From contig JAFSUI010000009.1 in NCBI GenBank assembly GCA_017445315.1, forward strand, positions 1 through 32,477: a stretch of DNA of 32,477 nt, written 5' to 3'. Under the pieces are notes generated by a model. It made no database searches. It saw nothing but the letters and a program-made list of their open reading frames with translations, and was not told the origin of the DNA. Shown piece by piece: positions 5,106-8,203 of the stretch; position 1 is the first letter of the stretch, and each line of letters begins with the position of its first letter. The stretch is from Bacillota bacterium. GTDB lineage: Bacteria; Bacillota; Clostridia; Peptostreptococcales; Anaerovoracaceae. The translations under genes were made by a program, and so were the position numbers.

Positions 5106-6089
5106 ATGGAAAAGAAAAACGAAAACAGAATATGGGTGATAGGCGGAGCAAATATGGATATTATCGGGTCCTCGCATCATCCTTTAAAGGAACATGACTC
5201 CAATATAGGCTCCGTCAGGACCTATTTTGGTGGGGTTGGAAGGAATATTGCTCAGGCGTCATCAGAACTCGGAGAGAATGTAATCTTTATTACTTGCTTT
5301 GGTGGCGACGATTATGGTGATTTGATTGAAAAGCACTGCAAGGACCTTGGGATAGATACAAGCTTTTCCATCAAGAGCAGTAGATATCCGACTTCGACAT
5401 ATATTGCAATTCTGGATGAGAACAGGGATATGCATATTGCGATGAACGATATGGAGATCCTTGAAGAAATAACAAAAGAAGTTCTTGATAGAGCGCTTAA
5501 GAATATGACCGGCGATGACATAATGGTAATAGACAGTAATTTTAAGCCTGAGCTCATAGAATACCTCGTCAATAATTCTCCCGCCAGAATAGCTGCGGAT
5601 CCCGTGAGCGCAGCAAAGGTTCCAAAACTCGGACCCGTAATGGATAGGATAAATATATTTAAGCCCAATGCGATAGAAACAAAGGAACTAACAGGTATAG
5701 ACATCGTGGATGACAAGACCGCAAAGCAGGCTATAGAGTGGTTCCTAGAGAAAGGCGTTGAAGAAATACTCATAACACTCGGAAAGGATGGCGTTATTTG
5801 TGGAACAAGGGACCGTATATCCAGAATAAATCATAAGACAGTGGAAATGAACAGCGCAAACGGGGGCGGCGATGCAATGTTTGGGGCCTATCTAGCAAAG
5901 AGGCATAGAGGAGATAGCGTTGCGGAGGCGGTTGAGTTTGCGATAGCGGCAGCGGTTTTCAAAATCACTGAAGATAAGGAACTTGGACATATTCACGATA
6001 CCGGGGTGTCAAGAGAAGAACTGCGAGAAAAAGAAAAAGCCATTAATGAGTTAATAGATACACTTGAAATGAAGGAGATAGAATTATGA
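5106..6089 (+). CDS. psuK: Pseudouridine kinase (PfkB family)
   Basis: This enzyme phosphorylates pseudouridine to pseudouridine 5'-phosphate, the first cytosolic step of pseudouridine breakdown. The 327-residue protein shows the ribokinase/PfkB N-terminal pattern (GGANMDIIGSS, then YFGGVGRNIAQASSELG). The C-terminal signature NSANGGGDAMFGAYLA has the catalytic aspartate at residue 256. The usual anion-hole GAGD reads GGGD here, a conservative change. Assignment to pseudouridine rather than another sugar or nucleoside comes from the psuG gene that overlaps its stop by four bases. A 116-base gap precedes it, in which I see no convincing promoter. The start ATG is preceded by a weak purine-rich site (AAGAGAAA). 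Confidence 0.88.
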   Translation: MEKKNENRIWVIGGANMDIIGSSHHPLKEHDSNIGSVRTYFGGVGRNIAQASSELGENVIFITCFGGDDYGDLIEKHCKDLGIDTSFSIKSSRYPTSTYIAILDENRDMHIAMNDMEILEEITKEVLDRALKNMTGDDIMVIDSNFKPELIEYLVNNSPARIAADPVSAAKVPKLGPVMDRINIFKPNAIETKELTGIDIVDDKTAKQAIEWFLEKGVEEILITLGKDGVICGTRDRISRINHKTVEMNSANGGGDAMFGAYLAKRHRGDSVAEAVEFAIAAAVFKITEDKELGHIHDTGVSREELREKEKAINELIDTLEMKEIEL

Positions 6090-6997
6090 AGCTAAAAGTC
6101 AATCCTGAAGTGAAGCAGGCATTAAAAGAAGGAAAGCCAGTAGTTGCTCTTGAATCAACAATTATTTCTCACGGCATGCCATACCCAAATAACGTAGAGA
6201 CCGCGCTTAACGTAGAGAAGATTGTAAGAGAGCATGGCGGTGTTCCTGCAACGATTGGAATAATCGACGGCGTTGGAATAGTCGGAATGAATGCCGAAGA
6301 GATAGAGGCATTCGGAAAGAAAGGTCAGGAAATCCCAAAGGTTTCTAGACGCGACCTCGCTACTATTATGGCAACAGGTTCATGGGGCGCAACAACGGTT
6401 GCTACAACCATGATTCTTGCCAACCTGGCCGGAGTTGAATTCTTTGTAACAGGAGGAATCGGCGGTGTTCACAGGGGTGCAGAGCTTACGTTTGATATCT
6501 CCGCAGACCTTGAGGAACTTGCGCGCACCAACGTAAGCGTAATCTGCGCGGGCGCAAAGGCAATTCTTGACCTTCCAAAGACCCTTGAGGTTTTGGAAAC
6601 AAAAGGTGTACCTGTTCTCGGATACGGAACCGATGAGCTTCCGGCTTTTTATACAAGAAAATCGGGACTTGCTGTTGACTACAACGTAAAATCTTCTGAA
6701 GAAGCTGCTAGAATAATCAAGGAAAAAAGAGAGCTTAAACTAGATGGAGGAGTACTTATTACCAATCCAATCCCTGAAGAAGATTCAATGGATGCAGACG
6801 CAATAAATGCCGTAATAGATAAGGCTCTCGCAGAGATGGACGAGAAAGGAATCAAGGGAAAGGAATGCACACCCTTCCTTCTCGCAAAGGTTGCCGAGAT
6901 TACAGGAGGAGACTCCCTTGCGGCTAACATAAAGCTCGTCTATAACAATGCAGCAGTAGGAACCGAGATTGCAAAGGCATACAGCAAGCTTAGATAG
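6086..6997 (+). CDS. psuG: Pseudouridine-5'-phosphate glycosidase
   Basis: This enzyme cleaves the C-glycosidic bond of pseudouridine 5'-phosphate to uracil and ribose 5-phosphate, feeding uracil to salvage. The 303-residue length matches the family. Typical segments are ALESTIISHGMPYP near residue 22, ATIMATGSWGATTVATTM, the glycine-rich TGGIGGVHRGAELT, and CAGAK, whose Lys158 is the likely Schiff-base lysine (the equivalent of E. coli Lys166, by my reading). SD GAAGGAGATAG lies inside psuK, and the start overlaps the psuK stop by ATGA. The last codons (AGA TAG) form the outer end of the long inverted repeat at 6991-7226. Confidence 0.95.
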   Translation: MKLKVNPEVKQALKEGKPVVALESTIISHGMPYPNNVETALNVEKIVREHGGVPATIGIIDGVGIVGMNAEEIEAFGKKGQEIPKVSRRDLATIMATGSWGATTVATTMILANLAGVEFFVTGGIGGVHRGAELTFDISADLEELARTNVSVICAGAKAILDLPKTLEVLETKGVPVLGYGTDELPAFYTRKSGLAVDYNVKSSEEAARIIKEKRELKLDGGVLITNPIPEEDSMDADAINAVIDKALAEMDEKGIKGKECTPFLLAKVAEITGGDSLAANIKLVYNNAAVGTEIAKAYSKLR

Positions 6998-7226
6998 AGT
7001 ACTTTCACGAACCTAAGGTGCGTGATGTTTGTGATGTTCCTTCCGCAGGAATGGTAACAATTGACCGATGATAAAAGACGAACCTCTGTGAGGTTGGCAG
7101 CGGGCCAGCGGCCTTCGATGCAACCCTCCAGAGGTTCAATTTTATCGAGGATTCAATTGTCCATTCCGAGGACTAAAATATCACAAATATTATGCCCTTA
7201 GGGAATCCGTGAAAGTGCTCTATCTG
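6991..7226 (+). repeat. About 236-nt near-continuous imperfect inverted repeat (possible structured RNA)
   Basis: The whole psuG-nupQ gap, with both stop codons, folds back on itself. Arms paired by hand: 6991-7009 with 7208-7226 (19 bp), 7012-7018 with 7196-7202, 7020-7038 with 7077-7095 (19 bp), 7048-7054 with 7061-7067 in the 7100s (7161-7167), 7057-7064 with 7153-7160, 7069-7076 with 7140-7147, 7080-7088 with 7129-7137, 7090-7096 with 7121-7128. The 7020-7038 arm pairs with 7177-7195. The apex is GGCC at 7103-7106 with 7110-7113 around an AGC loop. About 98 pairs are formed, with only small loops and bulges. At least seven G-T pairs are wobble-competent on the plus strand, against one A-C that would wobble on the minus strand. 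There is no U-run at either end, no ORF and no recognised RNA family. It could be a 3'-UTR element, an antisense-processing structure or a palindromic mobile repeat. Confidence 0.8.
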
Positions 7227-8203
7227 CTTCCCTTATCGTACGGTACACCTTCAGCCTTTGGAGCTCTTGATTTTCCTGCGGAGAAGGCGAGTACTACGAG
7301 TACTGCGACGTATGGGATTAAGTTGTAGAAATACATCGGTAAGCCAAGTTCCTTGGTAAATGGGAACTGGCTATAAACTACGCTCAAGCATTTTAGGAAT
7401 CCAAACATGAGAGCGCCTAGCGCTATTCCGAGTGGTTTCCAGTTACCAAATATCATGATGGCGAGTGCAAGGAATCCCATGCCTGCGACTGCGCCTGATG
7501 CGGTTCCGTTAGCTACTGTTGCGATATATACGTAGCCGCCGAGACCTGCGAGTGCACCGGATATTGTTGTTCCGAGATATCTCATCTTATAGACGTTTAT
7601 TCCTACGGAATCTGCAGCGTGCGGGTTTTCACCGCATGCACGGAGTCTAAGTCCTGTCTTTGTTTTATAGATAAATATGGACAGAATTATAAATAGTGCA
7701 ATGCAGACAAAGGTAGATATATATGTCTTATCAAAGAACACCTGGAGTGCTGCTGGAAGGTCTTTATTTTTGATTACGTAAGAGAAATCTACAACATTTC
7801 CTTCGGTATTTCTTGCTGTTCCCATCTCCAGCTGATCCTTGGTGGTGAAAACCTTGATGAGGAAGAGAGAGATTGCAGGAGCAAGAAGGTTAAGTGCTGT
7901 TCCTCCGATTGTCTGGTCTGCGTTGAATTTTACAGCAGATATAGAGAGGAGGAGGGAGAATATAGCTCCCGCCAGCGCTGCGGATAGCATACACAGCAAG
8001 AACAGTAACTGAGGATGTTCAACAAATACCATAAAATGCTGTCTTGCGTTTAATGCTACGACTGCTCCGATAAATGCACCAAAGATCATGATACCGTCAA
8101 GAGCGATATTGATGATACCGCTTCGCTCTGCAAACATTCCTGCGAGTGCTACGATAAGAAGCGGGATAGCGAATATTAGTGTCTTCTGTAATATGAATAC
8201 CAT
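7220..8203 (-). CDS. nupQ: Nucleoside ABC transporter permease (NupQ/YufQ type)
   Basis: This is the second membrane subunit of a BMP-type nucleoside importer, of the family of B. subtilis NupQ (YufQ). It has 327 residues, mostly hydrophobic, with about eight to ten membrane helices. Family segments include AGMFAERSGIINIALDGIM at the N-terminus and LRACGENPHAADSVGINVYK in a cytoplasmic loop. It starts three bases after the nupP stop behind a strong SD (GAAGGAGGAA), so it is last in the operon. Its stop codon and the preceding AGA codon lie in the outer stem of the long inverted repeat. Substrate is inferred: uridine, guanosine or pseudouridine are all plausible given the neighbours. Confidence 0.9.
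   Translation of the reverse strand: MVFILQKTLIFAIPLLIVALAGMFAERSGIINIALDGIMIFGAFIGAVVALNARQHFMVFVEHPQLLFLLCMLSAALAGAIFSLLLSISAVKFNADQTIGGTALNLLAPAISLFLIKVFTTKDQLEMGTARNTEGNVVDFSYVIKNKDLPAALQVFFDKTYISTFVCIALFIILSIFIYKTKTGLRLRACGENPHAADSVGINVYKMRYLGTTISGALAGLGGYVYIATVANGTASGAVAGMGFLALAIMIFGNWKPLGIALGALMFGFLKCLSVVYSQFPFTKELGLPMYFYNLIPYVAVLVVLAFSAGKSRAPKAEGVPYDKGSR

Follow-up and report, generated by a model that had tools for sequence, protein, structure and literature searches.

The psuG-nup intergenic region forms a single long hairpin

The stretch of DNA analysed here (the window) comprises 32,477 nucleotides of contig JAFSUI010000009.1, from a Bacillota bacterium of the Anaerovoracaceae. 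Within it, the genes psuG and nup are transcribed towards each other. A preliminary description of the window had proposed that a long imperfect hairpin with about 98 hand-counted pairs fills the gap between them and includes both stop codons. Folding bore this out on both strands: positions 6991-7226 form a single unbranched hairpin on each, with the two stop codons in the basal stem. The + strand fold has 94 pairs and -129.7 kcal/mol (z -14.97; outermost pair 6991-7226), and none of 200 dinucleotide shuffles matched it. The - strand fold has 92 pairs and -110.0 kcal/mol (z -12.39), and was likewise equalled by none of 200 shuffles.

From the outside inwards, this rod consists of a locus-specific outer stem, an internal loop (loop A), a middle stem, an asymmetric loop, an A/T stem, a GC stem and an apex (Table 1). 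Positions 6991-7024 of the 5' outer arm have no other match within the host genome.

Table 1. Features of the psuG-nup region, in window coordinates.
Feature	Position	Strand	Basis
Flanking gene psuG	6086..6997	+	Pfam Indigoidine_A PF04227
Whole rod hairpin, core orientation +	6991..7226	+	Fold z -14.97; R1 core match 7039-7175
5' outer arm, locus-specific, with psuG stop 6995-6997	6991..7040	+	Pairs with 7174-7226
Loop A, 5' strand, TTCCGCAG	7041..7048	+	Sequence and fold
Middle stem 5' strand and adjoining loop 5' strand	7048..7069	+	A1/A2 alignments, pair counts
A-tract on +, the T-tract GTCTTTTATC of the putative - strand terminator	7070..7079	-	Tract count, fold
Apical GC stem, 5' half, GAACCTCTG	7080..7088	+	Fold, tract count
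Apex, type I; swapped for other apices elsewhere, including the orthologous G003 copy	7089..7128	+	Copy comparison
Apical GC stem, 3' half, CAGAGGTTC	7129..7137	+	Fold, tract count
T-tract AATTTTATCG of the putative + strand terminator	7138..7147	+	Tract count, fold
Loop A, 3' strand, CGAGGAC	7167..7173	+	Sequence and fold
3' outer arm, locus-specific, with nup stop (7222-7220 on -)	7174..7226	+	Fold
Flanking convergent gene nup, branched-chain/nucleoside-type ABC permease	7220..8203	-	PF02653

The rod belongs to a multicopy family

BLAST against the host genome (G000) returned 16 matches including the window copy, some being the two halves of a single copy. Among 61 genomes, matches occurred in three (G000, G003 and G012), all of one genus. 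A covariance model built from 23 copies (R1) gave 31 rows in the host genome, or at least 19 distinct copies after 12 opposite-strand rows were merged, and 47 rows, or at least 31 copies, in the congener G003; these counts are lower bounds because 150 candidates were scored per genome. A separate R1 search added a weak twentieth copy in the host genome, and at least 8 of the 13 genomes of the genus contain an R1 match. The model scored the window copy at 146.6 bits on the + strand against 39.4 bits on the - strand, and the core of the rod is therefore oriented. A palindromic repeat was among the options raised in the preliminary description, according to which many copies elsewhere would make the hairpin a repeat element rather than a unique RNA; the number of copies in the host genome and its relatives favours that option.

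A second model (R2), built from 18 distant copies, was run on 349 genomes of the window's bacterial family and matched 38 of them, in 9 of 92 genera; the distribution among genomes is patchy. Wider R2 searches, run with stricter filters at which weak matches were lost, matched 15 of 297 genomes in a sample of the order and 2 of 398 in a sample of the phylum, all within the same bacterial family. The exact core pattern did not occur in IMG/VR, and blastn against phages and plasmids gave no rod match. In a collection of named genomes, from which records of the host's own genome were possibly omitted, the pattern was confined to the rumen MAGs RGIG8396 (9 contigs) and RUG12197 (2 contigs).

The window contains no match to any known Rfam family at the gathering threshold, and positions 6950-7270 have none at E values up to 1; loci of eight relatives gave one chance-level miRNA match. 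A literature search, for which subscription papers lay mostly out of reach, returned no publication describing the rod. The family is absent from Rfam 15 and, in the samples searched, restricted to one bacterial family.

Structure is conserved while sequence turns over

In a plain MAFFT alignment of 23 copies (A1), 94.9% of cells pair and 25 of 47 pairs have changed on both sides. The covariation score is 0.289, against 0.110 in shuffles; none of 500 shuffles reached any of five measures, and slid partners pair in 27-51%. Changes are two-sided in 105 cells and one-sided in 17 to 18, and G-U intermediates are rare in the core. A further alignment (A4), of 18 copies from G006, G007, G008, G011, G126, G142 and G161, was fitted to the model and is hence biased towards it; 95.1% of its cells pair, 40 of 41 pairs have changed on both sides, and slid partners pair in 40-49%. 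It takes 18 of 25 sources, L055, L078, L111, L117, L118, L130 and L132 having been omitted because they matched on the opposite strand, had very long apices or scored weakly. Seven orthologous pairs aligned by sequence only were too noisy in the outer arms, with many broken pairs, and are not counted as support; in that alignment, the window copy and its orthologue L022 differ by 14 double Watson-Crick changes, with 22 pairs broken. What is conserved in the rod is structure rather than sequence. A fold no better than that of shuffled sequences and a lack of covariation in relatives had been named beforehand as arguments against a functional RNA; neither applies, as the fold surpasses its shuffles and the pairing does covary in relatives.

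The rod is modular, and its apex is exchangeable. A second apex (apex II, TGTTTGAGCCC..GGGCGAGTT) sits on a similar middle stem in the same genome, and the apices of the window copy and L022 differ. Loop A (UUCCGCAG/CGAGGAC) recurs across genera, from G000 and G003 to G142, G126 and G161. The idea that it is nearly invariant was rejected: just 38 of 80 copies have both of its halves, CCGCA and GAGGA, 14 have a single half and 28 have neither, and copies that lack it carry other modules there, such as TTTCTGAGGAG/CGAAGAG. Among 25 further copies, both halves were found in 10 of 11 from G239, 3 of 3 from G329, 2 of 2 from G337, 0 of 2 from G195 and 0 of 7 from G365. A 62-nt apex II sequence is also repeated at about 80% identity on host contigs C9, C7, C22, C20 and C18 (L094-L101), several of these repeats lying at contig ends.

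Copies lie at gene ends and carry a terminator signature

Neighbouring genes were called with a crude longest-ORF script, which left one side uncalled in 7 of 80 copies. In the remainder, the flanking genes are convergent for 44 copies, ++ for 14, -- for 11 and -+ for 4. Convergent placement thus accounts for 44 of 73 classifiable copies, compared with 30 of 257 gaps in sampled stretches of the host genome. Thirty-nine convergent copies have their two stops no more than 110 nt away. In these, core and stop are separated by a median of 39 nt on each side, with a correlation between the sides (rho 0.55), and the palindrome stops short of the stop codon by a median of 5 nt on the left and on the right alike. 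The palindrome reaches the stop on the left in 25 of these 39 copies and on the right in 28; in 16, neither end is further than 12 nt from its stop. The stop-to-stop extent is a tendency, not a rule. A special tie to two functionally linked operons, as first suggested for the window, did not hold up, since the element adjoins many other genes too.

The initial observation that the hairpin lacks a U-run is correct for its base. Inside, however, the apical GC stem is followed by AATTTTATCG on the + strand and GTCTTTTATC on the - strand, and in the window copy 6 of the 10 nt preceding this stem are A and 5 of the 10 nt following it are T. At least five A before and five T after the chosen stem, again within 10 nt, were counted in 66 of 80 copies, an upper estimate because stems were chosen partly by their A/T-tracts. 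By this count, a GC stem with a T-tract on both strands has the make-up of a bidirectional intrinsic terminator. The view that the hairpin is not a simple terminator is therefore right in that the rod is far more than one, but its heart bears the signature of one. A dedicated terminator scan, which permits loops of 3-8 only, reported one site, on the - strand, and no promoter-like site was found in the region. The rod probably stops transcription from both sides, and the window copy would most likely end both the psuG and the nup transcripts. Loss of Rho was rejected as a reason for long terminators, Rho being present in 13 of 13 genomes of the genus.

Outer arms are locus-specific and self-complementary

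Outer arms differ from locus to locus, and the window family has no shared terminal inverted repeats. Scored for self-complementarity, the outer 45 nt exceed the 99th percentile obtained for cross-locus pairs in 75 of 78 copies (the exceptions being L031, L161 and L110), with a median score of 44 versus 12 between loci. The longest exact complementary run has a median of 11 in 79 copies and is at least 16 in 13 of them, the cross-locus 99th percentile being 8; L132 has an exact run of 45.

The psuG-nup gap was compared between relatives. In G003 (psuG 94.7% and nup 89.9% identical), the inner part of the rod is kept, and the outermost arm is different yet paired. In G012 (nup 92%), the corresponding convergent genes have just a short terminator hairpin between them. 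At this one locus, presence of the element in G000 and G003 can thus be set against its absence in G012.

Another host locus, L058, has the core within a different palindrome, of which L060 is a core-free relative. L060 reads GGTATATATTTGCC followed by AACG; L058 reads GGTATATATTTGCC, core, GGCAAATATGTGCC and AACG, which places an inverted duplicate of the flanking loop next to the inserted core. We regard this pair as the single clear case of inverted copying. Such an arrangement is predicted by fold-back template switching, a process argued in the accessible part of one study (PMC8794818) to create and maintain RNA hairpins.

Mismatches point to one folded strand

Mismatches in the outer arms of 78 copies were taken from an alignment with a strand-symmetric score and read on the core strand. 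G.U mismatches outnumbered A.C mismatches by 159 to 48. By genome, the ratios were 43:5 in G000, 68:22 in G003, 15:0 in G012 and 33:21 in other species, the last not significant (p 0.13). By gene context, they were 94:29 for +-, 28:8 for ++, 19:5 for -- and 12:4 for -+ (p 0.08). Copies in ++ and -- contexts are biased alike, and the bias is therefore independent of gene direction. No G/T bias was seen elsewhere, either in same-base mismatches (37 GG+TT versus 31 AA+CC) or in unpaired bases (95:93). A strand mutation bias is an unlikely cause of the G.U excess, given the same direction in ++ and -- copies and the lack of G/T bias in other mismatches.

The + fold is more stable than the - fold in 75 of 80 copies, and in 12 of 14 further copies from G195, G365, G329 and G337; in G239, the - strand is the more stable in 8 of 11. 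The excess of G.U over A.C shows selection on one folded strand in the close relatives of the window, not everywhere. The selected strand would be RNA or single-stranded DNA, which this bias does not distinguish. A structured RNA, another of the options considered at the outset, is thus supported in respect of conserved pairing and strand-specific selection only; it is compatible with a palindromic repeat, and the two are not mutually exclusive.

Persistence at orthologous sites and apparent recent spread

At several orthologous gene pairs, the element is retained in 2 to 4 species. Its orientation is the same in the window copy and L022, L133 and L037, L135, L027 and L019, L142 and L028, L091 and L148, and L117 and L130. 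It is flipped in L136 and L035 against L021 and L132, and between L137 and L149, L140 and L147, and L073 and L154. These flips would be compatible with recombination between the arms, and persistence at orthologous gene pairs appears to fit old, stable features better than active transposons. In G239, near-identical rod copies stand in tandem and nested (L202, L203, L204 and L205) in a repeat-rich setting; two 300-nt copies, for example, lie 312 nt apart with 97% identity. The G239 copies have common ends, AAACACGGG..CCCGTGTTT, which the window copy lacks. This arrangement looks like recent spread.

Searches of these incomplete genomes for a Y1 transposase or a reverse transcriptase revealed no motor. 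Y1 transposase was found in 4 of 13 genomes of the genus (G005, G009, G010 and G001), the carriers G001 and G010 included, and not in G000, G003, G012, G006, G007, G008, G011 or G004; the reverse transcriptase RVT_1 was found in one of 13 (G008). Neither tracks the element, and both were rejected as the motor. The near-complete congeners G005 and G009, which have no R1 or R2 match, gave 11 and 5 Y1 transposase matches; no such match came from 8 of the 10 rod-bearing genomes of the genus.

Comparison with known repeats and terminators

Among known systems, the rod family seems to resemble the EFAR (Efa-1) elements of Enterococcus faecalis most. EFAR is modular in build and inserts into stem-loops, keeping parts of the target stem at its ends. 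Like the rod family, it is a dispersed palindromic repeat that prefers gene 3' ends; it measures about 163 nt in one study and is listed among MITEs (accessible text of PMC1590033, PMC2267715 and PMC3733652). The rod family differs in forming one rod of up to about 100 pairs with arms that exceed the terminator stem, a distinction drawn from descriptions only. Efa-1 is predicted, in the text available, to form two adjacent hairpins (PMC2267715), whereas the window sequence forms a single rod on both strands. Because the double hairpin is lacking and the comparison is by description only, we do not file the family as EFAR. Its many dispersed non-coding copies (at least 19 in G000 and at least 31 in G003, each a hairpin without a gene) agree with MITEs, and it is not filed as a strict MITE because the window copy lacks shared ends.

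REP/RAYT, ERIC, NEMIS and RPE are likewise palindromic interspersed repeats. The arms of ERIC and NEMIS belong to the repeat and are not known to be locus-specific, in contrast to the outer arms of the rod. No Y1 (RAYT-type) transposase was found in G000 or most rod carriers, which sets the family apart from REP/RAYT. In the accessible sections of the sources, ERIC is described as one long stem-loop (PMC2267715), and REPs as 20-40 bp sequences with GTAG or CGTC tags, often with RAYT genes (PMC3733652). In low-GC Firmicutes, terminators whose stem is preceded by an A-tract and followed by a T-tract, suggested in part of one paper to act bidirectionally near convergent genes (PMC1590033), share the 4A/4T flanks of the rod's GC stem; they are heterogeneous and 30-50 nt long, whereas the rod carries this signature inside a conserved element of about 230 nt. 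Paired uptake signal sequences of Neisseria and Pasteurellaceae are also repeated, form terminator hairpins and are enriched between convergent genes, according to the available text of PMC1852404, but they are 9-11 nt sequences in pairs, in other bacteria, and have no rod or locus-specific arms. The accessible part of PMC8040213 describes 250 palindromic candidate RNAs from human microbiomes, 230 of them with predicted terminators; the rod may be one of these candidates.

Interpretation of the rod

We consider it probable that the gap holds one copy of a palindromic, MITE-like multicopy family with a terminator at its heart, which would be mobile and would have gained its arms by inverted copying of flanking sequence. 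The rod, of about 230 nt, is built on an oriented core whose usual parts are an internal loop, a middle stem, a GC stem with A/T flanks and an apex that can be exchanged. Copies would settle in or beside stem-loops, mostly at convergent gene ends. Flanking DNA would be copied inverted into the outer arms, either by fold-back template switching or by retention and lengthening of target stems, and the arms would grow until they meet coding ends, so that the rod tends to span the distance between the stops. The window rod occupies the place taken by an ordinary short terminator in a close relative.

The strand-specific findings raise a possible, if rather doubtful, alternative, namely a functional class of structured RNA or single-stranded DNA in which a protein recognises the rod of one strand, the repeats are gene copies and the terminator tracts a by-product. 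The strong covariation (25 of 47 and 40 of 41 pairs two-sided), the 159:48 excess of G.U in every gene context with no G/T bias otherwise, the greater stability of the + strand in 75 of 80 copies and the orthologous persistence all speak for it, but the bias falls short of significance elsewhere (33:21 in other species, p 0.13), the - strand is favoured in 8 of 11 G239 copies, both strands of loop A are present in only 38 of 80 copies and 0 of 7 in G365, the region has no promoter-like site and the distribution is patchy. Somewhat less probable, and unlikely in our estimation, is a mobile structured element acting through one folded strand (RNA or single-stranded DNA), for which inverted copying would turn host sequence up to the stops into an outer stem that selection then keeps paired; its odds are lowered because loop A is counted in just 38 of 80 copies.

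An RNase III processing or mRNA-stability element common to both convergent mRNAs, like NEMIS or ERIC RNA, would suit a long double-stranded stem running from stop to stop and has precedent in the accessible parts of PMC2229807 and PMC1590033. It is nevertheless decidedly unlikely, as copies also occur in ++, -- and, in a few cases, -+ contexts, with their strand bias in the same direction. To be given just as little weight is the proposal that there is no mobile element, and that ordinary bidirectional terminators have grown by template switching while gene conversion kept their cores alike. Template switching is able to create and maintain hairpins, according to the available text of PMC8794818, and the 105 two-sided against 17 to 18 one-sided changes in A1, the orientation flips at orthologous loci and the long exact complementary runs agree with it. 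Against it stand the oriented core kept across nine genera and the near-identical dispersed copies of G239, which call for copying between sites. Chance or an assembly artefact deserves practically no credence: some copies do lie at contig ends (L011/L138 at C7 position 69), but none of 200 shuffles folded as well, and copies occur inside contigs of many independent genomes.

The rod adds a large, strongly covarying hairpin family that is new to Rfam 15. Its copies form a natural series for studying how long palindromes arise and stay paired during sequence turnover, by template switching or by selection, and how repeats come to serve convergent genes as bidirectional terminators. The mismatch bias towards one strand offers a handle for identifying any reader of the fold.

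Other palindromes and copies at contig ends

Some copies lie at the ends of contigs, as at the start of C7 (L138:69-261) and the end of C33 (L016). An arm of the C7 copy contains an inverted stretch of the apparent last codons of the neighbouring gene, presumably a rubredoxin gene, which may be real or an assembly effect. The host genome also contains palindromes with GGGACGGTTCTACTTGCAAAT-type ends (L060:5919-6338, L058:17544-17946, L060:15775-16083 and L073:12538-12918), some of which have a rod core nested in their apex.
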